This document shows positions 4,946-25,100 of a DNA stretch of 29,794 nt, piece after piece. Numbering within the stretch: position 1 is the stretch's first letter; each line of letters begins with the position of its first letter. The DNA is from a virus, in the IMG/VR virus record IMGVR_UViG_3300022213_000023, positions 1 through 29,794 of that record; one strand, written 5' to 3'. The notes under the pieces were generated by a model. The model was not told where the DNA came from and made no database searches. It was given only the letters and a program-made list of their open reading frames with translations. The position numbers were made by a program, and so were the translations under genes.

Positions 4946-7900
4946 TCAGAGCACTCCCGCCGCTACACGCCACTGAAGCTCCTCGAACATCGTCCTGGGG
5001 GGCTCCTGTGTGACGAACTTGTCGATGAAGATCGGGGTGGCGTTGCCTGCCCGGTCGAGTTCGGATCGGACGACGTCGCGCATCTTCGACACGGGTGACA
5101 CTATCTCGGGCTGTGAGCCCTCGCCGACAAGAGCGAGCGTCGGAGCGCTGATGTAGCCGCCGTCGGCGAGTTCGGGGATCTGCGGGACCCGGATCGTGAC
5201 ACCGCCGATCTTGCCGACACCAGGAATGCCAGTGTCGATCGACGGCAACGAGAAATCGAGACTGTTCCACCCTCTGATGATCAGATTCACGGCGCCCTTG
5301 AAAGCCTCCCACAGCCCGTCGAACATGCCAACGAACGCCCCCGACAGCCGGTTCTTGAGCCCGGTGAAGAACCCGACGAACGTGTCGACCTTGTCTTTCG
5401 CCGTGGACACGAGCTCGCCGATCCGGTCGAGCGCGCCGGTCACGAAGTCTCGGATCGCTCCGACAACGTCGCCGAAGATCGGGATTACCTTGTCGCGGAT
5501 GAACGCCCACAGGTCGCTCAACGCCGGGATGACCCGGTCGACCAGGAAGCTGACCGCGTCCTTGAACGCAGCGACGACGTGGTCGACGAGCCAGGTGACA
5601 ATGTCGGCCAGGATCGGGATGACCTTCTCAGCGATGAACGACCAGTAAGCCTTGAAAGCGGGGACCAGCACATCGAGCACGAACCCGACGACCGCCTTGA
5701 TCGCGCCGACCACATGGTCGCCGAACCATTCGACGATCGCGACGGCGGCGGGGACCAGCTTGTCGATGATGAACCCGGCGACGGCGGCGAACGCCGGGAC
5801 GAGCGTGTCGACGATGAACCCGGCGACCGCTTTGATCACGGTGGCGAACACGTCGAACGCTGCCGAAGCGATCGACGCGAACTTCTTGACAGCTTCGACC
5901 ACGACGTCGAGGAGGAAGCTGCCGATCTTGCCGAGGATCGGCAGGACCGTGCCGACGATGAACGACCCGACCGCCTTCAGGATGCCGAGCACGAAGCGGG
6001 CGTACGCGGCGTAGAAGCGGGCGAGGGCGGGGATGAGCGTGCCGAAGATGAACCCGGCGATCGGTTGCAGCACGTTGAAGACGGCACGGCCGAACCCGAC
6101 GATGGCCGGCACGATCGTCCCGGTGACGAACTCGGCGACCTTGAAGAACGCGTCGCGCAACGCCCGGCCGACAGCGTCGACGATGTTGCGGAACGTCTCG
6201 GACTTCTTGTAGGCGATGACAAGACCGGCGGCGAGCGCGGCTATCGCGGCGACCACGAAGAACACCGGGTTGGCGCTCATGACCGCGTTGAGGATCGCCT
6301 GCCCGGCGGCGGCGGCCTTCGTCGCGATGGTCGTCGCGACCAGCGCGACTTTCTGAGCGACCCACACCGCAGCGGCTTTGACGCCCTGCGCGATCTGAAT
6401 GACGATCTGCTTGGTCTGCGCGGCCATCGCCTTCGCGTGCGACGCGGCGCCCTTCGCCGCCCCGGTGATGCTGCCCTTGAGGTTCGTGAACGCTGCGGAC
6501 AGCTTCGAGATCGGCCCTGTCTGCTTGGTCGCCTCGAGCGCGGCACGGCCGAAACTGACGCCGAAAGTCTGCGCTGTCGACTGCAAGATGCCGATCGCGG
6601 AGGTGACGTTCCCGATCCCGGTCGTGACAGCGCTCGCCGTTTTGAACGCGACGAACGCCCCAGCTGCCCCGGCCAGTAGGGGCACGAGGACGTCGAGGTG
6701 GTCGGCGAGGAAGCCGATCGTCGCGGCGAGCACGTCGAGCGCGACGCCGAGGACCGGGCCGGCCACGGCGGCGACCCCGGAGAACGTCGTCAGGACAACG
6801 GGTAGCACATCGGTGATCAGCGTCGTCAACACGGCGACAAGCACGGGTATGACCCGCTGTGCCAGGTCGACGAGCGGCGGGATAGCTGCGACGACGAACG
6901 TGGCGACGGCGCCGCCCAGGTTGACGAGCCCGTCGATGACCGGGGAAAGCGACGATGCAAGCGACCCGAAGAACCCGCCCAGGTCGACCGTGCCGAGCGC
7001 TGCGATGATCTGCCGGCCAGCGTCGACGACCGTGGGGAGCAGGCTGACGATGGCGTCGATCGCCGGCTGCACCGCTTCGCCGATCGATTCGAACGCCGGG
7101 CGGACGGTGTCGATCATCGTCGTCACCGCCGTTCGCACAGCGTCGAAGGCGGCGCCGATGTCGAAGCTGGCTACCTTCTCGGCCAGCGCGCCGAACAGGT
7201 CGCGGGCAACCTCGAGCGCCGGTTGCACGGCGGCGCGGAACGTCTCGGACCGCTGGTAGAGCGTGTACAGGGCGACGGCGAGGCCGGCGGCGCCGGCCGC
7301 GGCGATGCCGAGCGGGTTGGCGAGCAGACCGCCGCCGAGCAGCGACAAGGCGCCCGAGACCTGGCCGACGATGGACTGCACGGCGGTAAAGCCCTTGAAC
7401 GCTGCGACGGCCGCCACCACGCTCGGGGCGAGCGTCCGTGCCGCTTCGGTGATCTCGTCGAAGTGTTCGATGACGAACCCGATCGACGCGGAGATCCCGT
7501 CGAACACTGCACGGGCGGCGACGCCGACCGTCTCGACGACGCCGACGAAGCCGTCCGACGTGATCCCCTCACCGGAGAACGCCGCAGCGAACGCGCTCGC
7601 TGCGATGACTGCGGTGTCGATCAGGTTGCGGGCCTCGACGGCGACTGTCTCGACGACGCCGACGAAGCCGTCGCTGGTGATCCCCTCACCGGAGAACGCG
7701 GCGGCGAACGCGCCCGCCGAGGTGCCGATGAGAATGACCAGGTCACGGATCGCGACGCCGATCGTTTCGACGATTCCGAAGATGCCGTCGCTGGTGATCC
7801 CGTCGCCCGACAGCGCTCCGATGAAGGCGCGGCCGAGGTCGGCTGCTCGGGCGGCGAGCGGGCCGACAACGGCGGACACCCGGTCGAAGGCGGGGAGGAG

Positions 7901-9007
7901 GTTGCGGTTGAGCGCTGAGACGACAGCGATCACGGACGGCAGGAGGGCCGTGCCGATGCGGGACTTCAGGTCGGTGATCTGCGCGGCGAGGATCCGCTGC
8001 TGGTTCGCGAGCCCGTCCGACGTCCGAGCGAAATCGCCCTGGGCGATCGACGTGTCAGCGAGGATCAGCGAGTACGCGGCTTGTGCTTTCGTCGCCGCGT
8101 CGAGCGTGTCGGGTATCTTCCCGTCGAGCACTCCGGCGAGCGCAGCGTTCGCCTGTTCGGCGTCGCGCACGGCGTCGGCGTACTCGACGCTCGCCTCGCC
8201 CTTCTCCTCGAGCGTCTTCGCTACCTTGCGGGCCGCCTTGTCAGCGGCCTCCTCGGCCGCGGACAGTTTGCGCACGTCGACGCTGGAATCGACGAGGCCG
8301 AGCCGGAACGCCTCAGCCTTGATCCTCGCGTCGTTGAGGTTGACGCCGAAGCGGCGCAGCGGCTCCGTTTCGCCGACGAGGCCCGACCGGAGCGCCAGGA
8401 GAACGTCGTCGACTTCGGCGTTGTTGAACGACGCGAGGTCCGTGGCGAGCCCGATGATCTCGGTCGACATGCCAGCGGCGACGCCCTCGCCGAGACCCAT
8501 GGCTCGGAACAGGTTACCGAACGTGCCGGCAGCTTCGAGGGCCTGCTGCTGTGACTGGCCGAGCGATGTCGCCGCCGTTTTCGACCAGCCGACGATCTCG
8601 TCTGCCGAGTCGCCGAACACGGCGCCGACCTTGCTGAGCGACTCGCTGAGGCTCGACGCCTCGTCGACAGCGCCCTTGAGGAACCCGCCGACCTGGACGG
8701 CGGCGAACGTCGCCGCGAGCCCGGTCGCGATCCCGCCAAGCCCCGACGTGAACTTATCGACGAAGCTGCGGGACGCGCCACCACCAGCGCGTCCCGCATG
8801 CCCGTCGACATCGCGCAGATTCGCGGCGAACCGCGAACCTGCACCCTTGCCGAGATCCAAGTTCTTGACGAACGCGTCGGAGACGTCCTTGCCCGCCGAG
8901 CGGCCCACATCGGCGAGCGGGCCTTCCAGCTCTTTCGACGCCTTAGCCGCGAACCCGCGGGCGGAGGGGACGAGAGAGACATACGCCTGCGCGACCTCGA
9001 CGGCCAT
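4946..9007 (-). CDS. Tail tape measure protein
   Basis: A 1353-aa protein that sets tail length; at the usual 0.15 nm per residue it predicts a tail of about 200 nm. The N-terminus (MAVEVAQAYVSLVPSARGF) and the following Gly/Ala helix-rich part with DEASSLSESLSKVGAVFGDS are characteristic. A tandem duplication occupies about residues 379-496. Residues about 850-1200 are long hydrophobic helices with a repeated pattern (FI.D.LVPA, FV.D.VIPAL, FIRDKVIPIF). The C-terminus carries LADGGYISAPTLALVGEGSQPE, a very common tape-measure ending. No peptidoglycan hydrolase motif was seen. ATG 9007 follows the chaperone stop by six bases, with GGAGAGGGG upstream. Confidence 0.96.
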   Translation of the reverse strand: MAVEVAQAYVSLVPSARGFAAKASKELEGPLADVGRSAGKDVSDAFVKNLDLGKGAGSRFAANLRDVDGHAGRAGGGASRSFVDKFTSGLGGIATGLAATFAAVQVGGFLKGAVDEASSLSESLSKVGAVFGDSADEIVGWSKTAATSLGQSQQQALEAAGTFGNLFRAMGLGEGVAAGMSTEIIGLATDLASFNNAEVDDVLLALRSGLVGETEPLRRFGVNLNDARIKAEAFRLGLVDSSVDVRKLSAAEEAADKAARKVAKTLEEKGEASVEYADAVRDAEQANAALAGVLDGKIPDTLDAATKAQAAYSLILADTSIAQGDFARTSDGLANQQRILAAQITDLKSRIGTALLPSVIAVVSALNRNLLPAFDRVSAVVGPLAARAADLGRAFIGALSGDGITSDGIFGIVETIGVAIRDLVILIGTSAGAFAAAFSGEGITSDGFVGVVETVAVEARNLIDTAVIAASAFAAAFSGEGITSDGFVGVVETVGVAARAVFDGISASIGFVIEHFDEITEAARTLAPSVVAAVAAFKGFTAVQSIVGQVSGALSLLGGGLLANPLGIAAAGAAGLAVALYTLYQRSETFRAAVQPALEVARDLFGALAEKVASFDIGAAFDAVRTAVTTMIDTVRPAFESIGEAVQPAIDAIVSLLPTVVDAGRQIIAALGTVDLGGFFGSLASSLSPVIDGLVNLGGAVATFVVAAIPPLVDLAQRVIPVLVAVLTTLITDVLPVVLTTFSGVAAVAGPVLGVALDVLAATIGFLADHLDVLVPLLAGAAGAFVAFKTASAVTTGIGNVTSAIGILQSTAQTFGVSFGRAALEATKQTGPISKLSAAFTNLKGSITGAAKGAASHAKAMAAQTKQIVIQIAQGVKAAAVWVAQKVALVATTIATKAAAAGQAILNAVMSANPVFFVVAAIAALAAGLVIAYKKSETFRNIVDAVGRALRDAFFKVAEFVTGTIVPAIVGFGRAVFNVLQPIAGFIFGTLIPALARFYAAYARFVLGILKAVGSFIVGTVLPILGKIGSFLLDVVVEAVKKFASIASAAFDVFATVIKAVAGFIVDTLVPAFAAVAGFIIDKLVPAAVAIVEWFGDHVVGAIKAVVGFVLDVLVPAFKAYWSFIAEKVIPILADIVTWLVDHVVAAFKDAVSFLVDRVIPALSDLWAFIRDKVIPIFGDVVGAIRDFVTGALDRIGELVSTAKDKVDTFVGFFTGLKNRLSGAFVGMFDGLWEAFKGAVNLIIRGWNSLDFSLPSIDTGIPGVGKIGGVTIRVPQIPELADGGYISAPTLALVGEGSQPEIVSPVSKMRDVVRSELDRAGNATPIFIDKFVTQEPPRTMFEELQWRVAAGVL
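7521..7871 (-). repeat. Three tandem 117-bp repeats inside the tape measure gene
   Basis: Units begin at 7521, 7638 and 7755 and are in frame (39 codons each). The first two are nearly identical over the block encoding GVVETV and FSGEGITSDG; the third (7755-7871) is diverged but keeps the same frame and the ETIG and SGDGITSDG counterparts. Exact 117-base spacing shows internal duplication, a known way for tape measures to change length. Confidence 0.9.
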
Positions 9008-9808: not shown

Positions 9809-10351
9809 TCAGCTCGCTCCGACGGTCTGCGTGTACACATAGGCCTTGACACCAGACGTGTCCGGGTAGCAGGTGATCGTGATCGGATAGGAGATCGCGT
9901 CGCCGTTGACGATGCTCACGTCGCCCTTCTCTGTGACCTGCCCGTCAGGGATCGCGATGCGGACGAGGTTCGTGTCGTCGATCACGTGGATCACGAACGC
10001 GCCACGGTAGCCCTGCTCGCCCTTCACCTCCGCCGTGCCATAAGCCCCGGCGTCGGTGTAGTTGCCGTAGTACAGCTCCAGCGTGTTCTCGGACGTTTCG
10101 AGCATCGTCCACGCGACGGTGTAGTCGTGACCGGTCTGGATCTTGCGGACGACGTCGGCGTTCTGCCACGCGACGAGGTCGGTGACATCGATGCTCGTCG
10201 ACGTGGTCACCCCGTCCTCGGAGATGTAGCCGACGTCCAAGAACGCGCCGTTCAACGCGTCTGTCGGGTTCGTGGGTACGGCCGTGCCGGACGGCGCGAA
10301 ATAGACGGCGCCGGTGACGCCAACCTGGACATTTGCCGCAGTGAGGGCCAT
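9809..10351 (-). CDS. Major tail (tube) protein
   Basis: A 180-aa protein that forms the tail tube. It starts MALTAANVQVGVTGAVYFAP (ATG 10351, GGAG eight bases upstream) and continues with GAFLDVGYISEDGVT, which is the standard beginning of actinophage major tail proteins, followed by a beta-rich core ending ISYPITITCYPDTSGVKAY. Length and start match the family. It lies between the tail terminator gene and the chaperones, and is flanked on both sides by GC hairpins, in keeping with a need for high and separate expression. An Arg/Pro-rich upstream extension of the frame to 10642 is a shadow of the neighbour. Confidence 0.92.
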   Translation of the reverse strand: MALTAANVQVGVTGAVYFAPSGTAVPTNPTDALNGAFLDVGYISEDGVTTSTSIDVTDLVAWQNADVVRKIQTGHDYTVAWTMLETSENTLELYYGNYTDAGAYGTAEVKGEQGYRGAFVIHVIDDTNLVRIAIPDGQVTEKGDVSIVNGDAISYPITITCYPDTSGVKAYVYTQTVGAS

Positions 10352-10437: not shown

Positions 10438-10830
10438 CTAGTGCGTCGCCCTGAGTGCGAGCTGCACCGAGAAGACGAATCGCTCCTGGCCGGACTCGGG
10501 GTCCGGGGAATGGACAGGCCCGCCTACCTCGTCGACCCGGTAGACCGTGCCGAAACCGACGAGTGCGGATCCTTGGGCTGCGTGCAGCCAGCCTCGGGCC
10601 AGCTGCGCGAGGTCGTGCGCGTCCTGTTCGGTGACCGCCCACGCCTCGACCGTGATCAGCGCCTCGTCGGTGACCAAATTGCGGCGGGCGCCGCCGAGCC
10701 GTTCGACGCGGACGAACTCGGCGGGGCGAGGGTTCGGCACCCTGGTCCGCACCGGCTGGGTGAGCGCGGCGTCGAGGATCGACACCGCTGCCGCCTGCGC
10801 GTCGACGAACAGGATCGGCGGGGTGCTCAT
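10438..10830 (-). CDS. Tail terminator protein
   Basis: A 130-aa protein expected to cap the head-proximal end of the tail tube and present it to the neck. It begins PPILFVDAQAAAVSILDAAL, has VRVERLGGARRNLVTDEALITVEAWA (about 40-65) and ends RFVFSVQLALRATH; this order (helix, V.R.GG...., t.e...v...aw, DAHDLA helix, f.v.l..R) is that of actinophage tail terminators. ATG 10830 overlaps the upstream stop by four bases (ATGA). Its place just before the major tail protein gene is canonical. Confidence 0.85.
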   Translation of the reverse strand: MSTPPILFVDAQAAAVSILDAALTQPVRTRVPNPRPAEFVRVERLGGARRNLVTDEALITVEAWAVTEQDAHDLAQLARGWLHAAQGSALVGFGTVYRVDEVGGPVHSPDPESGQERFVFSVQLALRATH

Positions 10831-11069
10831 CGTGCCGCCTGCACGGCGGCGGTCAGCGTGTGCCGGATCGCTTCGTTCCGTGCCGCTGCTGCACCGACGG
10901 TGCGCACCGACGCCCGGGCACGGTTACGTCCCACGTCCGAGTCGACGACATGCCCACGGCCCGCAGCGGCGGCCACTCTCGCGGCACGCCGCTCGAGGTC
11001 AGCGAGCACAGACCTGGACCGGAGGATCTTCACGAGCGCTGCACCGTCGACCTTCACGACGTTGGACAC
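10827..11069 (-). CDS. Small neck / HK97 gp10-like protein
   Basis: An 80-aa protein beginning SNVVKVDGAALVKILRSRSV, with a helical LADLERRAARVAAAAG and a C-terminal AAARNEAIRHTLTAAVQAAR. This short form of the gp10-like (neck or tail-completion) family is common in actinophages just upstream of the tail terminator. Start is GTG 11069, with GAGG four bases upstream; the gene overlaps the end of the preceding glycosyltransferase by 16 bases, so the two are translationally linked. Upstream in-frame sequence is a shadow. The sugar cassette separates it from the other head-completion genes, with which it normally adjoins. Confidence 0.75.
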   Translation of the reverse strand: MSNVVKVDGAALVKILRSRSVLADLERRAARVAAAAGRGHVVDSDVGRNRARASVRTVGAAAARNEAIRHTLTAAVQAAR

Positions 11070-11740
11070 TTCGCCTCCTCGACGATCGCTCGCATGGATT
11101 CGCGGTGGCCGATCGCCAACCAGTAGCGGCGGCGCAACGCTTCGGACTCTTGGCTGCCGACGATGCGGGACACCCGTTCGGGGGTCGGATGCCACAGGTG
11201 CCAGAGCGGCGCACGGCCCCGCCACGGCTGGCCGTGGAGCGTGCCGAGCGCGTACCCCCAGGCGTGGTCCTCGCCGCCCCAGCCGGCGAAGCGGCGGTCG
11301 AGCGGCACGTCAACTAGCACGCCGCGGCGGGCGACGAGCATGCCGCCAGCGGCGACGCCCGTGTACGGCGTCTGTTCGGTGTGCGCCATCCACACCCGGC
11401 CGAGGTCGAGCCTGTCGGATGTCACCTCGTCGGAGGCCGTTTCGTCGAGCCGCCAGACCAGACGGTGGGGGATCGCCCACGGGGCGCCACCCTCGACAGC
11501 GGCAACGGCGGCGGTTATGCCGTCGCACCACACGTCAGCGTCGGCGACGACGACCAGGTCGGCGCCGCTCGCTGCCACCGCGGGGTTCACCGCGTCGGCT
11601 TTGCGCCACGGCCCGCAGCCGCCCGTCTCTGCAACTGTCGCGGCGAAGCCGGCGTCGAGCCAGCGGCCCAGCACCCAGGCGAGCGCCCGGTCCCGGTGCG
11701 GGCAGCCGCCACGCCACGGGATCACAACCTCGACGTTCAC
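11054..11740 (-). CDS. Glycosyltransferase, GT-A fold with GWGGED motif
   Basis: A 228-aa protein. It starts NVEVVIPWRGGCPHRDRALAWV, has VADADVW (65-71) as the metal/nucleotide-sugar DxD site, and FAGWGGEDHAWG (151-162), the signature found at the acceptor/catalytic end of the galactosyltransferase C-terminal family (Glyco_transf_7C) and of polypeptide GalNAc-transferases. It is predicted to transfer a sugar from a nucleotide donor in the cytoplasm; the acceptor is unknown. GTG 11740 overlaps the upstream stop as GTGA. Last gene of the five-glycosyltransferase cassette and overlapping the neck gene that follows. Confidence 0.85.
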   Translation of the reverse strand: MNVEVVIPWRGGCPHRDRALAWVLGRWLDAGFAATVAETGGCGPWRKADAVNPAVAASGADLVVVADADVWCDGITAAVAAVEGGAPWAIPHRLVWRLDETASDEVTSDRLDLGRVWMAHTEQTPYTGVAAGGMLVARRGVLVDVPLDRRFAGWGGEDHAWGYALGTLHGQPWRGRAPLWHLWHPTPERVSRIVGSQESEALRRRYWLAIGHRESMRAIVEEAKCPTS

Positions 11741-12561
11741 ACGCCGGCCCACACCGGGTCGGCGACCAGCGGTTCTTGCCGCTCGCCGTCGATAACGACC
11801 GTCTCCCACGGCACCCGCCGCCAGAACCACTTGCGGTAGATGTTGTCGACGACTTCGGCCTCGCCGCGTTCGTCGAGGATGGCGCCCCACTGGCGCCAGT
11901 GCGCGCCATGGTCGGCGGGCAGACGGTCACCGGCCGCCCGGTACGCCTCCGCGCCGTTACGGACCTTGCGCACGAACTGCTCGGCGGACCGGTACGGGTA
12001 GTGGTGCACCGTCAGACTTTTCGGCACGCTCGCCGCGACGACACCGCTGTACGACGCCCCATGGTTGCCCTGATGGATGACCAGATCGGGCCGCCACCGG
12101 CACGCCACCTTCGGCAACGGCAACGGGTGGGCGCGACGCCAGCCCATACGCTTCGTCGGACACGTCTCACCATCGCGGTCCATGCCGGTCGGGACGTGGT
12201 CCCACAGCTCGGCCTCGGCGCACATCATCCCCGGCCCGATGTCGGCGAGGATGTCCGCGACACGCCCGAAATGCGAGCACCACCATTCGTCCGCGTCCCA
12301 CGGGATCACCCAGTCGGCGCCCATCCCGCCAGCCACGCCCGCCAGCCGGGTCATCTTCTCGGACTGCAAATAGGCCGGCTCGGGATCGTCGAGCACGGTC
12401 AGCGGCAGATCACGGACGAGATCCTCGAGGATCTCGCGGGTGCCGTCGACGCTGCGGTTGTCCGCGACGATGACGTGGTCGACCTGGCGGGCCATGTTGC
12501 GTGTTGTCGACTCGATGATGTCGGCTTCGTCGCGCACCATCGCCACACCGATCGCGGTCAC
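11737..12561 (-). CDS. Family 2-type glycosyltransferase (Glyco_tranf_2_4-like)
   Basis: A 274-aa protein. VAMVRDEADII (6-16) and DHVIVADNRSVDGTREIL (28-45) match the 'kNEa...hv.v.Dn.S.DgT' start of this family, and PWDADEWW (87-94) is the DxD donor site. The second half, with HHYPYRSAEQFVRKVRNGAEAY, matches the usual C-terminal 'H.~R....~.K' part of these enzymes. Start is GTG 12561, which overlaps the methyltransferase stop as GTGA and has GGGAGG seven bases upstream. The frame remains open five codons further up, to 12576, but without a site. Substrate unknown. Confidence 0.88.
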   Translation of the reverse strand: MTAIGVAMVRDEADIIESTTRNMARQVDHVIVADNRSVDGTREILEDLVRDLPLTVLDDPEPAYLQSEKMTRLAGVAGGMGADWVIPWDADEWWCSHFGRVADILADIGPGMMCAEAELWDHVPTGMDRDGETCPTKRMGWRRAHPLPLPKVACRWRPDLVIHQGNHGASYSGVVAASVPKSLTVHHYPYRSAEQFVRKVRNGAEAYRAAGDRLPADHGAHWRQWGAILDERGEAEVVDNIYRKWFWRRVPWETVVIDGERQEPLVADPVWAGV

Positions 12562-13178
12562 CTGTGCGCCTCCCATATCGTCGGATGGACGACCCGCCGA
12601 GGCGGGCAGTCGTCAGTCCACAGATCCATGCCCGCCACGAGCAGGTTCTGCCGGTAGCACGCCTGCACCTGCGGGTCCGAGTGGTCCCAAATCCGCCAGC
12701 GGAGAAAGCCGCTCACGTCGCGGCCATAGGCCTCGAACCTGGCAGACCAGTAGTCGGGCCACTGTTCGTTTATGTGGCCCACACCGCCCTGCCCCGGCGT
12801 CGCCGCCGAGAACAACACGATCGGGGCGAGTTCGCACAGCTCGGCTACCAACCCGTCGGCCCGGTCAGCGGGCAGATGCTCGGCGACTTCGAGGCAGACG
12901 GCCAGGTCGAACTGGCCGAGCGCCCCGGTGTCGAGCGGCCGGCGCAGATCGCGCGGCACCCAGCGGTCGAGCAGGCATGGCGTCTCCGCGCCGTCGACAC
13001 CGACAGCAGCCCAGCCTTCGGCCTCGAACCGCTTCGCGAACCAGCCCTCACCGCAACCGACGTCGATGACGCTGCCCGGCTCGCCGCCGAACAGCTCGTC
13101 GATAACGAGCGGGACGATGGCATCCGCCGAAGCGACCGACCCGGCACGAATCAGTTCGAAGAACCCCGCGTCGTACAC
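12558..13178 (-). CDS. SAM-dependent class I methyltransferase
   Basis: A 206-aa enzyme. Motif I is VIDVGCGEGWFA (37-48), the ribose-binding acidic residue lies in VGVDG (59-63), and motif IV is DLAVCLEVAEHL (91-102). The C-terminal part GHINEQWPDYWSARFEAYG is typical of phage and bacterial methyltransferases that sit in glycosylation loci. It likely methylates a sugar hydroxyl, or the acceptor of the neighbouring glycosyltransferases. Start GTG 13178 has GGAGG eight bases upstream; a 22-base gap separates it from the preceding gene, the only clear gap within the cassette. A DNA methyltransferase is unlikely: no target-recognition domain or DPPY/NPPY motif. Confidence 0.87.
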   Translation of the reverse strand: MYDAGFFELIRAGSVASADAIVPLVIDELFGGEPGSVIDVGCGEGWFAKRFEAEGWAAVGVDGAETPCLLDRWVPRDLRRPLDTGALGQFDLAVCLEVAEHLPADRADGLVAELCELAPIVLFSAATPGQGGVGHINEQWPDYWSARFEAYGRDVSGFLRWRIWDHSDPQVQACYRQNLLVAGMDLWTDDCPPRRVVHPTIWEAHR

Positions 13179-13200
13179 GCAGCCTCCATGGCCAGTCTAC

Positions 13201-13872
13201 TCAATAGCCCACACCGATCCGTTCGCCTCCGATGTGGTGCACCCATTCGCCCGAACCGCGGGCGCCCCAGTAGGCGCACATCGCCTTCGGGTCGGCGAAC
13301 AGCCTGGCTGACCAGACACCCTCGGAATGTGCGCCCTCGGGCCAGCCGAGAGCGCACAGGTCGGTGCGGTGCAGCGACGGGTTCGTCGTCCAGAACATGC
13401 GGTGCGTGAGCATGTCGTGTCCGGCGATCGTGGCGTCGTGGAACTCGCCGGGTCGGAGTTCGACAACGCCGCCAGCTTCGATCTCCTCGGGGTTCCACGG
13501 CTGGCGGCGCAAAGCGACCTGGCGCAGTCTCGGCTCGGCCTCCATCGCCTCGACCATCCCGCTCAGATCGACATGATGGGTGAAAGTGAAATCGTCCTCG
13601 GTGGAGAACACCCACCGTTCGGACACGCGCTTAGCGAGCCACTGCCAGATCCGCTGGTATGCCGGCCCGAAACCCGAGCGGGGCCCGTCGCCGAGGATCA
13701 CCCAGCCGTCCCCGCCGAACCGTTTCCGCAGCCACATCCGGTAGCTGGCGTCCCCGGAATCGTCGTGAATCACTCTGAGCGAGATCGGCCCGTCGAGCTG
13801 CGCCAAAGCGGACGGGATGGTCTGCTCGATGCACGCCCGCCGCCCATCCGTCATCACCAGCAGGACGATCAC
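13201..13872 (-). CDS. Glycosyltransferase-like protein
   Basis: A 223-aa protein. It opens MIVLLVMTDGRRACIEQTIPSAL, has SLRVIHDDSGD (31-41) in the place of the UDP-binding strand of GT-A enzymes and WVFSTEDDFTF (87-97) as probable donor-metal site, with EDD instead of DxD. The C-terminal half (HDMLTHRMFWTTNPSLHRTDL, GSGEWVHHIGGERIGVGY) is also found in phage and viral glycosyltransferases of unknown acceptor. Start GTG 13872 overlaps the upstream stop as GTGA. Evidence for family is weaker than for its neighbours, but fold and context agree. Confidence 0.72.
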   Translation of the reverse strand: MIVLLVMTDGRRACIEQTIPSALAQLDGPISLRVIHDDSGDASYRMWLRKRFGGDGWVILGDGPRSGFGPAYQRIWQWLAKRVSERWVFSTEDDFTFTHHVDLSGMVEAMEAEPRLRQVALRRQPWNPEEIEAGGVVELRPGEFHDATIAGHDMLTHRMFWTTNPSLHRTDLCALGWPEGAHSEGVWSARLFADPKAMCAYWGARGSGEWVHHIGGERIGVGY

Positions 13873-14471
13873 GTCACCCCCAAAGAGATCCGCCGATGCC
13901 ACCACACCCGCGCCGCCTGCGGCATCCCCCGGTTACGGCTCTTCGGGCGCACCCACGCCCGGTAGACCGCTGCGGGGACCGCCTCGACCGACGCCCCGGC
14001 GCGCCACATGCGCAGCCACAGGTCCCAGTCCTCGTAGATCGGCCAGTCACGCCAGCCGCCCGCCTCGCGCACCAGCCTGGTGCGGGCCAACGCGCCGACG
14101 ACCAGCCAGTTGCCGGCCTCCAAGCATTCGCCGGTGCAGTCGTGATCGTGGCCGGCGACGCGGGGCATCTTCGGGTGCACGTCAGGGCCGAGCACGGAAA
14201 CGTAACGCACGGCGGGGGCGCGCAGATCGGCGGCCCCGCCGGCCATCGCGTCGAAGTATCCGGGTTCGAGTTCGTCGTCGGCGTCGAGGTGGCACACCCA
14301 TTCGGTGCCGACCATGCCGAGCGTCTGGTTGCGGGCTTCGTGCAGCGTGCGGCCGTGGGCGTGGACGACGGGCACGCCGAGCCGTTCCGCTGACGGGACC
14401 GCCCGCTCGCGGGCGAGCGCCTGCCATTCGTCGCCGCCGAAGGTCGCTACGGCGACGGTCACGTCGAGCAT
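13869..14471 (-). CDS. Family 2 glycosyltransferase
   Basis: A 200-aa protein. It starts LDVTVAVATFGG, has the donor site CHLDADDELEPGYFDAM (60-76) and the late motif PIYEDWDLWLRMWRAGA (144-160), where ED is the usual catalytic-base position of GT2 enzymes. NWLVVGALARTRLVREAGGW before it is the standard acceptor-loop pattern. The start ATG 14471 is inside the end of the upstream gene (13-base overlap). This is the clearest GT2 member in the cassette. The sugar and acceptor are not predictable from the sequence. Confidence 0.92.
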   Translation of the reverse strand: MLDVTVAVATFGGDEWQALARERAVPSAERLGVPVVHAHGRTLHEARNQTLGMVGTEWVCHLDADDELEPGYFDAMAGGAADLRAPAVRYVSVLGPDVHPKMPRVAGHDHDCTGECLEAGNWLVVGALARTRLVREAGGWRDWPIYEDWDLWLRMWRAGASVEAVPAAVYRAWVRPKSRNRGMPQAARVWWHRRISLGVT

Positions 14472-15145
14472 GTGACCTGCTCCCACAGGTGGCGCCGCCG
14501 CTCGAAAACGAGCCTGCCCTGGGCCATGCGGAGACGTTGCGCGGCGTAAAGCGGATCCATCGGCGCCTTGCCCCAGTTCGGGTGCAAGTGCTCGACGATG
14601 CTGCCCGTCGCGTGCGCCCACACGCCCCGCATCTTCGCGGTGGCGACCATCTCGTCGTCGACCCATTCGTGCGGGTAGCCCTCGTGGAGGACTTTGCCGG
14701 GCTCGTCGATCGTGCCGTGCTCGTCGACATAGGCGCGGGTGACGAGCATGTGCGTCGCGTGGTCGCCGGACATCACCCGGGCGTTGCCGAGATCGTTGGT
14801 GCCGACAACCTGCGCGCCTTCGGCCAGTTTCGACTCGGCGGACTCCAACCAGCCTGGGTGGAAGCGTAGGTCGTCGGCACCGAGGAACAGGATAGGCTCG
14901 TCGCTCGACCGGTGCGCGGTGTTGATCTTGCGGGCCCAGTCGCCGGGCATCACAGGCCGGTCGATGACCAGCAGGTCGGCGCCGGTCGCCTTGCAGGCGT
15001 CATGCTCCGCGGTGTCGCCGGGCGAGGCGACGAACAGCAGCCGGTAGGCGCCTTCTGGTGTCGCAGCGGCGAGCGACTCGGCGAGCGGCGCCGCGTTGTG
15101 CGGGCGGCGCAGCACCGGCACGACGACCAGCACCCGGGCTGTCAC
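14459..15145 (-). CDS. Actinophage-type glycosyltransferase
   Basis: A 228-aa protein, first gene of the sugar cassette. It starts TARVLVVVPVLRRPHNAAPL, the usual start of a glycosyltransferase common in actinophage late regions, with ILFLGADDLRFHPGWL (85-100; ADD as donor site), VVGTNDLGNARV (113-124), a DDE at 163-165 and VEHLHPNWGKA (184-194). Start GTG 15145 overlaps the stop of the head-closure gene as GTGA, so it is translated from the same message as the neck genes. Predicted cytoplasmic transfer of a sugar to a virion protein; acceptor not known. Confidence 0.9.
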   Translation of the reverse strand: MTARVLVVVPVLRRPHNAAPLAESLAAATPEGAYRLLFVASPGDTAEHDACKATGADLLVIDRPVMPGDWARKINTAHRSSDEPILFLGADDLRFHPGWLESAESKLAEGAQVVGTNDLGNARVMSGDHATHMLVTRAYVDEHGTIDEPGKVLHEGYPHEWVDDEMVATAKMRGVWAHATGSIVEHLHPNWGKAPMDPLYAAQRLRMAQGRLVFERRRHLWEQVTCST

Positions 15146-15480
15146 CCCTCGACCACCCGCAATGGCACCTCGAAATGGTGCGTCGATTCGCCTGGCCGGC
15201 GCGCCGGGTTCGGCGGGCCGACCACCTCGAACGTGATGCCAGACCAGACGACCCGGTCCGTCGCAGCGATGTCTTCGCATGCGAGGAAGAACCCGACCCA
15301 GTCGGACACCTCGCCGTCGCGTGACGTTGTGACCTCGCTCGAGGTGCGCTGGCTAACCCAGCCGACCGTCGCTGTCGACGTCGGCGAGGCCCAGTCGCGG
15401 ATCGTGTTGCCGTAACGGTCGACGGCTATTGATGACCGGAGGATCGTGACCGGGTCGACGATCAGGCTGTCGATGCTCAC
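15142..15480 (-). CDS. Head closure / head-tail stopper-like protein
   Basis: A 112-aa protein beginning SIDSLIVDPVTILRSS, with RYGNTIRDW and GWVSQRTSSEV, and a beta-rich core ending FEVPLRVVEG. The order 'v.i.r....d.yG....dw......~.gwv.p....e......' is common in actinophage head-to-tail stopper proteins located after the gp6-like connector. Start GTG 15480 overlaps the upstream stop as GTGA; the longer frame to 15495 has no ribosome site. Position between connector and gp10-like gene supports the role, although six sugar genes now intervene before the gp10-like gene. Confidence 0.72.
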   Translation of the reverse strand: MSIDSLIVDPVTILRSSIAVDRYGNTIRDWASPTSTATVGWVSQRTSSEVTTSRDGEVSDWVGFFLACEDIAATDRVVWSGITFEVVGPPNPARRPGESTHHFEVPLRVVEG

Positions 15481-16058
15481 CGGCCTGCCGTCCACGCCAC
15501 GGCCGGCAGCGGCGGGAACGCCCGCCGTAGCCGGGCCTCTTCGGCGGCCATGAGCCCGCCCGCGCCCTGCGCCGCCGCCGAACCCATGCTGTAGCTGTAG
15601 CCGGCGATCGTTTCTTGCTGGATGCCGGACCGGTCAGCGGGCTGGCCGAACGCCCGGGCGGCCATCTGAGCGACCATGCCGACCACCCATGACGGGGCGC
15701 TGTCACCCGAACGGGTGAGCGTGATATCGACCACGTCAACCGCAGAGCCGTCCTGGTCGAAGGCGAGCGGCTGGCTCAGCATGACGAGATGCATCCCATC
15801 CCACGTGCCATCCAGGTCAGTGCCTGTGATCGTTTTCACCGCAGAGACGGCGGAGATGTCGCGCATGGCGAGCCACACTCTGCCGTCGCGCACCGACCGG
15901 CGGATCGTGCCGGTCCACATCCCGAACGGCCGCCCGGTGACCTGCCGCACCGCCGAGGATGCCTGGTCGAGCAGGGCCGTAACGCGGGTCTGTTCGGCGA
16001 CGGTGAGTGTCCGACCGAGCGCGTTCTCGACGTCGGCGTATGTCGCGATAGCCGCCAT
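15477..16058 (-). CDS. Head-tail connector (gp6-like adaptor)
   Basis: A 193-aa protein. The N-terminus, IATYADVENALGRTLTVAEQTRVTALLDQASSAVRQVTG, is the helical start of gp6-type connectors that form a ring under the portal; VSAVKTITG and WVVGMVAQMAARAF follow as expected. The C-terminal part is Ala/Gly-rich and ends in a proline/arginine tail. ATG 16058 has a GGAGGG four bases upstream. It is the first gene after the major capsid protein, the usual position. Confidence 0.83.
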   Translation of the reverse strand: MAAIATYADVENALGRTLTVAEQTRVTALLDQASSAVRQVTGRPFGMWTGTIRRSVRDGRVWLAMRDISAVSAVKTITGTDLDGTWDGMHLVMLSQPLAFDQDGSAVDVVDITLTRSGDSAPSWVVGMVAQMAARAFGQPADRSGIQQETIAGYSYSMGSAAAQGAGGLMAAEEARLRRAFPPLPAVAWTAGR

Positions 16059-16134: not shown

Positions 16135-17067
16135 TCAGCTGCCAGACAGGTTCATCAGGCGGACGTAGGACTCGACGTCCTCGCAGTAGAAGCCGTACTC
16201 GGCCTCTGCGCGGACGGCGATCAAGTTGTGCTCCCACAGCGAGGTCAGCGTGCCGTTGATCGTCACGGACGCCTGGTTCGACGTGGAGTAGTTGATGCCG
16301 CCGACGACGCCCCACACGCACTTCGACCAGTCGCCCGCGTAGCCGACGACGGTGGTCAGGTCAGTCGTCGCGACACCGTCAGACATCCACGTCTCACGGC
16401 CCATCGTGCGGCCACGGCGGGCCAGCTGGGTCGGGTTCGACGCCGCCGGGGCGGTGTCGACGAGAGGGCTGTCGATGAAGATCGGCCTGCCGTTCGTGTC
16501 GATGGACGCGTTCAGGGTCGGTTCGACGATGTCGTCGAAAACGAACCCCGTCAGACGCTTCCCGTCGCCAGCGAGCAGGAACAAGGCGTTGTTCAGGTCG
16601 GCCCACACGCCGCCCGTCGCGCTCGACGACGCGCCGAGCTCGACAGCCTTCGTGGACTGGTCGAGATACATGCCGAACGGGGTCGACGTGCCGTGCAGCA
16701 CCGCGGAGTCGAACGCCGTGGCGAACGCCTCGGCGATCTGCGGGCGGATCAGGCCGATGTAATTGCCGGGGTTGGCCCGGACGACCTCTTCCGAGACCAC
16801 CGCGATCGCGGCAATCTTCTTCGGGGTCATCGTGCGCAACGCCATCGTGCCATCGCTCGCGGCCTTCTGTCCGGCCTCAGAAACCCACGCCGCGGCCATC
16901 TTGCCGGTGACGACGGGGATCTCCTGGCCGGACGCGCCGAGCGGGACCTGACGGGCGATCGACTGGACGACGCTCATGCGCGCCGCCTCGTCGAAGTACG
17001 CCTGGGCCCGTTCGGGCTGGATGAAGCCGGAGAAATCGGTGGTAACAGTTGCGGCGGTGATCGCCAT
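16135..17067 (-). CDS. Major capsid protein (HK97 fold)
   Basis: A 310-aa shell protein. It shows the usual family order: short N-arm; VVQSIARQVPLGASGQEIPVVTG; VSEAGQKAASDG, the E-loop start (about 63-75); MTPKKIAAIAVVSEEVVRAN (80-99); AFATAFDSAVLHGT (112-126); and a C-terminal NLIAVRAEAEYGFYCEDVESYVRL. No long N-terminal scaffold (delta) domain is present, which fits the separate scaffold gene upstream. ATG 17067 has a GAGG upstream. A hairpin lies on either side of the gene. Confidence 0.95.
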   Translation of the reverse strand: MAITAATVTTDFSGFIQPERAQAYFDEAARMSVVQSIARQVPLGASGQEIPVVTGKMAAAWVSEAGQKAASDGTMALRTMTPKKIAAIAVVSEEVVRANPGNYIGLIRPQIAEAFATAFDSAVLHGTSTPFGMYLDQSTKAVELGASSSATGGVWADLNNALFLLAGDGKRLTGFVFDDIVEPTLNASIDTNGRPIFIDSPLVDTAPAASNPTQLARRGRTMGRETWMSDGVATTDLTTVVGYAGDWSKCVWGVVGGINYSTSNQASVTINGTLTSLWEHNLIAVRAEAEYGFYCEDVESYVRLMNLSGS

Positions 17068-22176: not shown

Positions 22177-25100
22177 TCATCCGAGGTCGTCACCGATCTC
22201 GATGCGGACCCAGCCGACCGTCGGCGCTGACAACGGGCCGCCCGACACGTCCAGCTCGAACTCGCCGTCGAAAACGCCAACGGTGTCAGTGTCGCCGGCC
22301 TGCCACACATACCGGAGGCGGGCCACGCCGTCAGTGACCGAAACGACTGTCGCAGCCTGACGGTTGACCTTGAGCGCTGTACCGCCATGCGACCTCATCA
22401 GGAAAACGGCTGGGGTCACACCGGCGGTCACAAGGTCGCCGATGTCGAACGCCGTGCTGCTGTAGGTCACGTCGACCTCGAGGATGGGTAGGAGGTCGTC
22501 TTGTTTCATGCTGTGCACGGTGGTCGCGACGCCTGACACCTGGCCCCCTCGGATGACAGCGGCGGTCAGCCGCCTGACGATGACAGTGGACGAGACGGTC
22601 GGGCTGACGACCACGGCGCCGACTGCCGGGCTGACGACTGTGACAGCGGCGAGCCCTCCGCCGCTGTCGAAGGACAGGACCGGGCGGGCTGCTGCCGTGA
22701 CGGCCGCGGTTTCTGCGGTGACCTCGATGGCGGGCGCTGGGCTGGCCGACGTGACGGCCGCTGTGGCGGCACCGGCGGCGGCTTCGACGCTCGACGACAC
22801 GATCTGCACGGTCGCGTCGGCTGCTGTGGCGGCACCGGCGGCGGGCAGCGCCGGGGCGCTGACAGCCGGCGAGGTAGGCGACGCGATGCCAATGACGGTG
22901 GCGGCGCCTGCCGTGGCGGCGGTGCCGCCAGAGGTCTGAGCGGTCGCGTCGTGCGCCGTTCCCGCTGTCGAGGCGGGCCCGGCGGTAGAAGCGATCGTGG
23001 TGGTCGGATCGTGGCCGGCGGCCGTGCCGTCCGAGGATCCCGCCGTCGCAGTGATCGTTGTGGCGGCGGTCGGGTCATGCGCTGACCCGGCTGTGGTCGC
23101 CGCCTGCGGGACGGGTTCGACGATCGCTGCTGGCGAGAACGCGGCGGCGGCGCCCGCCGCGTGTTCTGCGGCTGCGGCGACGTTGTCGCCGGTTGTCGCC
23201 GTCGCGTCGACCGCCTGGCCGGACGCGGTGGCGGCCGTCGGCGTCGTTGTGACCGTCGCTGCGGGACCAGCAGCGGTGCTCGTAGCGGGGGCGGTGCCCG
23301 CCTGCGCTTCGACGCTGGTCGTGGCGGTGGCGTCGTGCGCCGACCCGGCCGCTGTCGACTGGGCGGCGGTCACCGCGACCGAGGCTGCCGCGTTGGCGGT
23401 GGTGGCCGTCGCGTCAGACTGCGACGAGATCGGCGCTACAGCCGCGGACGTCGCCGCTGCTGTAGCGCTCACCGCCGCTGTTTCTGCTAGCGCCTCGATC
23501 GTGGTCGTAGCGGTGGCGTCAGCGGCGGCGCTGGTAGCGGAAGCGGCGCCGGACGTGATCGTGACCGCGGTGGATGGCGGCGAGGCGGCGACGGTCGCGA
23601 CGGCGGCATCGGCGGTGGCGTTGGTCTGGCCCGACGCCGAGACGGTCGCGTCGTGCGCCTGGCCGGTCGATGTGGCGGGTGCGACGGTCGCCGCTACCGC
23701 AGCATTGGGCCCGGTCGCCTGCCCGGATGCCGCTGCGGTTTCCGCGACGGCCTCGACGCTGGTCGTAGCGGTGGCGTCGTGCGCCGACCCGGCCGCTGTC
23801 GACTGGGCGGCCTGCACAGCCGTCGAGGCGGCCGTGTCTGCGGCGGTCCCGGCCGCCGCCGCCAGCCCGGCAGTGGTGGCGACGGTCGAGGTCGCATCCG
23901 TTGCGGTCGCCGAGCCAGACGCCGATCCGGCAGCAGCGGCGACGCTCGTCGTGGCGGTGGCGTCGTACGCGACGCCGGTGCTGGCAGCGGTCGCCGCTGT
24001 CAGAGCGGTCGCCGCTTGCGGGGTCTGCGCTTGGCCGGTGCCGGCAGCAGCCCCGGCGGTAGCGTTGACCTGGTCGGAGGTGGTCGCTGTCGCGTCGCTG
24101 CTGGTGCTGGTCGCTGCCGCGGTGGCGGGCGTCGCCGCTGCTGTCGCGGTGAGACCCGACGCTGTGCCCGTGGCGGTGGCGGTCGTAGCAGGCGCGGAGA
24201 CCGAGACGGCGCCGGTGGCGGCGTGAGCTGTGCCGGTCGCGGTGGCGGTGGCCGCCAGCGCAGCGACCGAGGTCGTCACGGTGGCGTCCGACGCGGCGAC
24301 CGTGCCGGTAGCCGCGTCCGCGCTCGGCCCGATCGTCGTTTGCGGGTTGGACGCGGCGGCTGTCGCGGTCGAGGCTGTCGCGGCGGCGGCAACGCTGGTC
24401 GTCGCGGTCGCGTCGTAGGCGGCGCCGGTGCTGGCAGCGGCGCCGGATGTGACCGTGACCGTGGGAGACGGCTGCGAAGCGGTAGCGACGGCGGCGGCGG
24501 TCGCTGCGGTGGCGTTGGTGGACGCCTCGGTCGACACCGTCGCGTCGGATGCGGAGGCGGAAGCGGTGGCGGCGGCCGGGCCGGTCGAGACGTCGGCGGC
24601 GGCGGTCGACGCGGTTGCGGTGGTCGTGGCGGCCTGGGCGGCGGCGTCGACGGCGGCGGTCGCGGTGGCGTCGAGAGCGGCGGCGGTAGTAGCAGCTGTG
24701 GTAGCGGTGGGGGCTACTGATGCGTTCGGCGCGTTCGCGTTCGCCAAGCCCGACGCGGTGCCGAGCAGCGGCGCGACAGCGTCCGAGGCGTCATAAGCGG
24801 CGACGCCCACGGCAGCGGCGGAGGCAGTAGGAGCGATCGTCGTCGTCGCACCAGCAGCGGCAGCGGTCGCGGTCGCGGTGGCGGCCGAAGCGGCAACCGA
24901 CCCGGCGACAGCGGACGCCGAGCCAGTGGCGGTGGCGGTGCCCGTCTGAGCGGCGATGCTGGCCGTCGCGTTGTTCGCGGTGGCCGCCGCGGTGGCGGTC
25001 TCGGCGGCGGCGTTCGTCGCTGTCGTGATCGAAACGGTCGCGTCGCCCGCTGTGGCGGCGCCGGCTGCGGCGCCGGCGGGCGCCGCGATGCTGGTCGTGG

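Follow-up and report, generated by a model that had tools for sequence, protein, structure and literature searches.

What might a set of sugar-transferring enzymes do in the middle of a phage head-tail operon? The stretch of DNA analysed here, hereafter called the window, comes from an uncultured phage; it is a viral fragment of 29.8 kb from IMG/VR and has its main genes on the minus strand. Read 5′ to 3′ on that strand, these are several unknown genes (one encoding 1581 aa), terL, portal, protease, scaffold, MCP, Ad1 and Hc1, then GT1-GT2-GT3-MT-GT4-GT5, followed by the neck, tail terminator, tail tube, chaperone and tape measure genes. The original prediction, made before any database search, was that the phage builds a glycan on its own virion. 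No glycan has been measured, but the comparative evidence supports this claim, and virion glycosylation is the best-supported reading of the locus on three lines: the placement of the cassette among head genes, the homology of GT5, and a C-terminal serine signature on the capsid protein (MCP) and the tail tube protein (TTP).

The cassette and its six enzymes

The cassette (minus strand, 11054-15145) consists of six intact ORFs: GT1-GT5 encode glycosyltransferases of GT-A type, and MT encodes a SAM methyltransferase (Table 1). Most of these ORFs overlap one another by ~3-15 bp, the sole exception being a 22-bp gap ahead of MT, and the outermost genes overlap their neighbours, GT1 with Hc1 and GT5 with neck. 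The flanks further include Ad1 (phrog_2377) upstream and the tail terminator (phrog_123) downstream. In Samy, NC1 and xhp1, related phages without the cassette, Ad1, Hc1, neck and terminator adjoin directly, and the insertion is therefore real. Two parts of the original prediction thus held: that head-closure and neck genes are normally contiguous, and that they are separated here by five GT-A-type transferases and a SAM methyltransferase, as borne out by ORFs, Pfam, PHROGs and AF2/Foldseek.

Table 1. Coordinates of the cassette genes, their immediate neighbours and the two predicted acceptors, listed 5′ to 3′ on the minus strand.
Feature	Position	Strand	Remarks
MCP, predicted acceptor	16135..17067	-	phrog_10 2e-57; C-terminus ...RLMNLSGS; last Ser codon 16138-16140
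Hc1, head closure	15142..15495	-	5′ neighbour of cassette; phrog_501 4e-17
GT1	14459..15145	-	228 aa; cassette gene no. 1; GTG start overlaps Hc1 stop; GT-A fold
GT2	13869..14471	-	GT2-family transferase, DADD motif; Pfam PF13632 7e-8
GT3	13201..13872	-	'galactosyl transferase' phrog_3047, 2.8e-18
MT	12558..13178	-	SAM methyltransferase (class I), located after GT3 and before GT4; optional; PF13489 1e-10
GT4	11737..12576	-	GT2-family transferase, DADE motif; Pfam PF13704 3e-10
GT5	11054..11740	-	cassette's last gene; 'galactosyl transferase' phrog_1721 2.6e-13; DAD and WGxxD motifs
Neck protein (gp10-like)	10827..11069	-	3′ neighbour of cassette; phrog_387 2e-12
TTP, tail tube, predicted acceptor	9809..10351 (start approximate)	-	phrog_117 5e-48; C-terminus ...TQTVGAS; last Ser codon 9812-9814

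A DNA-level search of the window against phage records matched nothing. All six genes recur at the same position in a contig that is 83% identical to the window over 13.6 kb, and comparison of the two gave dN/dS values of 0.12-0.24 for all six cassette genes and of 0.10-0.26 for structural genes. The cassette is thus not there by chance and is maintained under purifying selection like that on the structural genes.

All five transferases combine a GT-A fold with an acidic metal-site motif, as established for GT2 and GT4 via Pfam, for GT1 and GT3 via AlphaFold (AF2) models and Foldseek, and for GT5 via its motifs and remote PDB matches; their enzyme activity is inferred. Acidic metal-site-like motifs are invariant across the GT alignments. 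GT1 is weak at the sequence level (phrog_14945, 6.8e-6), its model has a pLDDT of 92, its top Foldseek matches in the PDB are GT-A enzymes without exception, and its ADD and DxE motifs are invariant. The GT3 model (pLDDT 90) likewise matches GT-A enzymes, so that structure prediction, one of the checks proposed with the original prediction, has been run for part of the set and returned the GT-A fold in both cases. Searches against 50,697 phage records gave no tblastn match for GT1, the phage GX15bay as sole match for GT2, and only GX15bay and two weak matches for GT4. MT carries SAM-binding motif I and the Methyltransf_23 domain (PF13489), with DVGCGEGW invariant in the alignment, and its distant PDB matches include O-methyltransferases. 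Its substrate is not established, and the O-methylation first suggested for this locus remains an inference only, MT being an optional member found in a minority of cassettes.

No membrane-spanning segment was detected in GT1-GT5 or MT by Kyte-Doolittle analysis at the usual threshold of 1.6. Each product is, judged by sequence, an ordinary soluble enzyme, although its activity is unproven. This result bears on a first alternative, namely that the cassette remodels host-surface glycans for receptor masking or superinfection exclusion. Phage glycosyltransferases are known in serotype conversion (PMC12619734), and integrases on some related contigs could be taken in its favour. Against it stand the lack of membrane segments in all six proteins and of any flippase-like partner seen in the cassette, the membrane-spanning flippase or transferase components of Gtr-type serotype conversion being absent from GT1-GT5 and MT. 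The late structural-operon position, the homology of GT5 to virion-modifying transferases and the link to C-terminal serines of MCP and TTP argue in the same direction. We consider this alternative very unlikely and rejected it on the absence of membrane segments.

Head-gene settings of the cassette

Related loci were gathered in two ways and then surveyed with HMMs: a scan with GT5 gave 28 loci, and a profile of GT1 picked up 170 out of 189 candidate contigs, of which the best 80 were kept. Note that the presence of GT1 or GT5 in the surveyed loci is guaranteed by this retrieval, but the other genes, their order and their setting are not, and that many of the records are fragments. GT1 was found in at least 170 IMG/VR contigs, and the order GT1-GT2-GT3-(MT)-GT4-GT5 is repeated over many of them. 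The original prediction had singled out the size of this transferase set, and here it requires correction in scope: such sets occur widely among uncultured phages and are not specific to the window. Minimal forms consist of GT1+GT5 or GT1+GT2+GT5, and MT, where present, mostly lies directly ahead of GT4. Named hosts are Parafrankia soli (NRRL B-16219), in which the cassette occurs as part of a prophage, and one Actinomycetes MAG; other MAGs give weaker or fragmentary matches. Integrases are also seen on some related contigs.

The insertion point is shared with the 83%-identical relative but varies across the survey, in which at least three junctions are occupied: MCP|Ad1 (13 loci), Ad1|Hc1 (15) and Hc1|neck (4, the window counted), with more cassettes at contig ends. 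These counts contain near-duplicate loci; a PHROGs check of the flanks confirmed at least one example of each junction. At least five slot changes are required on the cassette tree (36 loci) and at least six on the portal tree (37 loci), both being quick trees whose counts are only indicative. All three slots occur within a single portal clade (portal 50-60% identical to that of the window), with L046 at the first junction, L084 at the second, and L113, L008 and the window at the third. The cassette also adjoins head genes in four non-homologous modules: L045 (portal phrog_113, MCP phrog_1650), L059 (MCP phrog_4523), L087 (portal phrog_776, MCP phrog_777) and L088 (portal phrog_533, MCP phrog_283). 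Recurrent placement among head genes is thus shown and, if the virion-glycosylation reading is right, the cassette has repeatedly changed place, both from one head-gene junction to another and from one head module to a non-homologous one.

Two further alternatives can be weighed here. According to the first, the cassette is cargo without any role in the particle, present in the operon by chance. The unproven activity of the enzymes leaves room for it, but the gene order conserved over many contigs, the repeated head-gene placement and the dN/dS of 0.12-0.24 make it very unlikely. According to the second, the transferases act on phage DNA, adding sugars to hydroxymethylated bases and so protecting it from restriction. 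Multi-transferase phage loci that hypermodify DNA have been described (Pyle 2024, cited in PMC12619734), and the L087 contig carries a TET/JBP-like gene. Yet TET/JBP was present in just 1 of 38 records and thymidylate synthase/dCMP-hydroxymethylase-like genes in none of 37 viral records (which may be incomplete), the cassette is located in head operons away from replication genes, and the C-terminal signature of the capsid protein would be left without explanation. DNA modification was rejected on these nearly empty searches, and we regard it as very unlikely.

Relationship to known virion glycosylation systems

In Che8, Corndog and Myrna, the capsid and tail tube have been reported to carry sugars added by phage-encoded enzymes (PMC12363180, PMC11600133); the glycans of mycobacteriophages have been placed at the C-termini of these two proteins (PMC12619734). 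O-linked glycans are reportedly described in Freeman 2023. In Corndog (cluster O), portal and protease are separated by an O-methyltransferase (gp35) and three glycosyltransferases (gp36-38) of the same operon (PMC4351075); our comparisons instead used Wildflower, a Corndog-type phage whose operon has the same arrangement. The GT5 profile matches Wildflower gp35 (117 bits), Che8 gp109 (108 bits) and gp235 of the cluster C phage QBert (89 bits), and the GT3 profile matches QBert gp234 (128 bits). At least one cassette transferase, GT5, is thus homologous to transferases of phages with proven glycosylation.

A close parallel is the Corndog-type operon, in which glycosyltransferases and a methyltransferase likewise lie inside the head operon, one transferase is the GT5 homologue just mentioned, and the MCP and TTP end in serine (-VGS and -GDS). 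This operon differs in having three transferases and another insertion point, and its methyltransferase and other two transferases do not match the cassette profiles. The virion glycosylation locus of Che8 (cluster F), gp108-110, shares the GT5 homologue gp109 and, weakly, a GT2-like gp108 (30 bits); as in cassette phages, its MCP (NKTGS) and TTP (SDGS) end in serine. By contrast, it lies at the far right genome end and lacks a methyltransferase, and the cassette has no clear homologue of gp110, which has been termed essential (PMC12363180). No cassette profile exceeded ~17 bits against Che8 gp110 or Wildflower gp36, representing the Che8 gp110/Corndog gp38 type of transferase; the window being a fragment, one could lie elsewhere.

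Two other systems resemble the cassette in part. The cluster of glycosyltransferase and methyltransferase genes in the Caudovirales phage GX15bay contains homologues of GT2, GT3 and GT4 (204, 284 and 282 bits) in the same order, but it is located upstream of terminase, is preceded by a GT4-like and other sugar genes, has a methyltransferase only weakly similar to MT, and no GT1 homologue was found in it. Two genes of the M. abscessus prophage prophiGD91-2 are homologous to GT5 (147 and 140 bits), and the prophage has methyltransferases beside terminase and an MCP ending in -SSGS; unlike in the cassette, its sugar genes precede terminase, and no homologue of GT1, GT2, GT3 or GT4 was detected.

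The C-terminal serine and the proposed pathway

The shared, acceptor-like C-terminus of MCP and TTP is a feature defined in the present analysis; it was first spotted by eye, and later tests were carried out on sets independent of its discovery. In cassette contigs, 17/19 MCPs and 23/24 TTPs end in serine, mostly as -GS or -AS (-SGS and -GAS in the window itself), as against 56/591 other mapped proteins. After clustering at 70% identity, the signature holds for 11/12 MCP and 17/18 TTP clusters (28/30 together), compared with 1/29 for portal. Cassette-bearing MCPs of four other head-gene types end in -EGS, -VGS, -GVS and -EGS. P values computed on such data treat kin sequences as independent, thus overstating certainty, and are rough only.

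Among cultured phages with glycosyltransferases, all 13 proteins considered in Che8, Wildflower, Jabbawokkie, Sbash (MCP and TTP assigned by position), prophiGD43A-1, Rabbitrun and prophiGD91-2 end in serine, or 14/16 once phiAsp2 (1/2) and Phrappuccino (0/1) are counted, against 0/16 in eight phages without a glycosyltransferase match. The slot-A MCPs allow a comparison within one protein family. In contigs of at least 30 kb free of glycosyltransferases, 3/17 homologues end in serine, typical ends being ...YPFAVLVP or ...LTA; with a complete cassette, 10/10 do so, with a four-residue extension (e.g. ...YPFAVLEPANAS). Where cassette-free homologues stop at ...YPFAVLVP, the cassette versions run four residues further, to ...LEPANAS. 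The figure becomes 11/13 once L031 and the two reduced loci, L106 and L119, are added. Homologues of the window-type MCP without sugar genes are Ser-ended in 2/36 cases, and two with sugar genes end in -TGS (L213, with GT1 and GT2) and -DGS (L240, with a Che8-type transferase). Several apparent Ser-ended exceptions (L142, L183, L200, L207, L240) have another glycosyltransferase or a methyltransferase close behind MCP. The signature thus spans non-homologous MCPs and TTPs and follows the glycosyltransferases, not the MCP lineage; independent sugar systems appear, as inferred from sequence, to have converged on one acceptor.

There are further exceptions. The MCPs of L106 and L119, with reduced GT1-GT2-GT5 cassettes, end in -ASV and -GSA, and in L106 the TTP closes with -GTLT; among transferase-bearing phages, the MCP ends in P in phiAsp2 and in A in Phrappuccino, and the tube candidate of QBert (cluster C; MCP not located) is not Ser-ended. 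In addition, L173, L188 and L263 have Ser-ended MCPs without any glycosyltransferase seen. Hc1 and tail terminator are also frequently Ser-ended in cassette contigs (9/27 and 8/22 clusters). Taken with the exceptions in L106, L119 and phiAsp2, this could indicate that the virion is glycosylated elsewhere, on internal residues or on a neck or decoration protein, and that the serine at the C-terminus reflects assembly or lineage. We find this unlikely, since the signature occurs in non-homologous MCPs and TTPs, tracks the transferases instead of the MCP lineage, and coincides with the C-terminal site of mycobacteriophage glycans on capsid and tail tube (PMC12619734). We did not find a C-terminal serine acceptor rule stated in the literature searched, which did not cover the primary paper (Freeman 2023) or Pyle 2024.

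The cassette is therefore likely to be a virion-glycosylation module that attaches an O-glycan to the C-terminal serine of MCP and TTP, with the reservation that neither the glycan nor enzyme activity has been measured. In the proposed pathway, six cytosolic enzymes would be translated late from the head-tail operon and would transfer sugars sequentially from nucleotide sugars, in an order and of an identity that remain inferred. These donors would probably be host-made, since neck-type phage records lack genes of the GDP-mannose-dehydratase family, which were sought and found only in L059, L078, L096, L101, L102 and L117 (with other or undetermined head-gene context) and in the Parafrankia host genome. 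The idea that nucleotide-sugar genes travel with neck-type cassettes was rejected on the same grounds. The product would be a short O-linked glycan, probably methylated in phages bearing MT, attached to the terminal serine (-[G/A]S-COOH); the serine as attachment residue is likewise inferred. The resulting glycan-coated virion may benefit from shielding or altered adsorption.

A bolder reading, which we favour only slightly, takes the C-terminal -[G/A]S dipeptide as a glycosylation tag that is portable: a phage that gains one of several sugar cassettes, themselves non-homologous, would also gain a Ser-ended C-terminal extension on MCP and TTP, whatever the fold family of these proteins.

Virion glycosylation by phage enzymes is already known in mycobacteriophages, though so far demonstrated in just a handful of them, and what is added here is a large, relocating and almost uncultured cassette together with an acceptor tag. 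If the interpretation is correct, a larger dedicated pathway, led by GT1, an enzyme family without a match in the cultured-phage collection searched, would be common among uncultured phages whose hosts are mostly high-GC and probably actinobacterial. The C-terminal serine would then offer a rule, simple and open to falsification, that predicts the modified proteins and the site of modification. The question of the acceptor could be tested directly, virion glycosylation would become predictable from sequence, and, should the bolder reading also hold, one could read from the sequences of uncultured phages whether their virions are glycosylated.

Sugar genes outside the cassette

The sugar-type genes lying near Ser-ended major capsid proteins (MCPs) in four other IMG/VR loci encode a PF03407 nucleotide-sugar transferase and/or methyltransferases, and apparently represent systems independent of the cassette.

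Features of the window and of compared loci
Feature	Location	Strand	Remark
Tape measure protein	window 4946-9007	-	also matches endolysin-type PHROG (phrog_971, 8e-58)
1581-aa protein	window 22177-26922	-	5′ of terminase gene; DUF1349 (Pfam 4e-8)
Head-maturation-protease-like gene	L045:5946-8078		also matches RNA ligase PHROG (phrog_2659)
Head-maturation-protease-like gene	L087:7413-9560		also matches RNA ligase PHROG (phrog_2659)
TET/JBP-like gene	L087 full record (103 kb contig) 71270-71734
GT3 in two frames	L026:1658-2301
Sugar-type genes	L142:4093-5394		shortly 3′ of Ser-ended MCP
Sugar-type genes	L183:5208-6388		shortly 3′ of Ser-ended MCP
Sugar-type genes	L200:11002-13315		shortly 3′ of Ser-ended MCP
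Sugar-type genes	L207:12154-13402		shortly 3′ of Ser-ended MCP
GT1-GT2-GT5	L106:9336-12450		MCP ends -ASV
GT1-GT2-GT5	L119:9411-11994		MCP ends -GSA

Individual genes and contigs

DUF1349 was the only domain matched by the 1581-aa protein, for which no PHROG match was obtained. The TET/JBP-like gene shares its 103 kb contig with the sugar cassette, and the divided GT3 glycosyltransferase gene reflects a frameshift or an assembly error.

C-terminal serine: exceptions and Hc1

Both loci with the reduced cassette listed are exceptions to the rule that MCPs of cassette phages end in Ser, the predicted glycan acceptor. The head closure protein Hc1 ends in Ser in 9/27 clusters overall (70% identity), frequently where the cassette lies 5′ of Hc1 (L010, L013, L014, L015, L018, L023, L068, L089), and may possibly be an additional acceptor.
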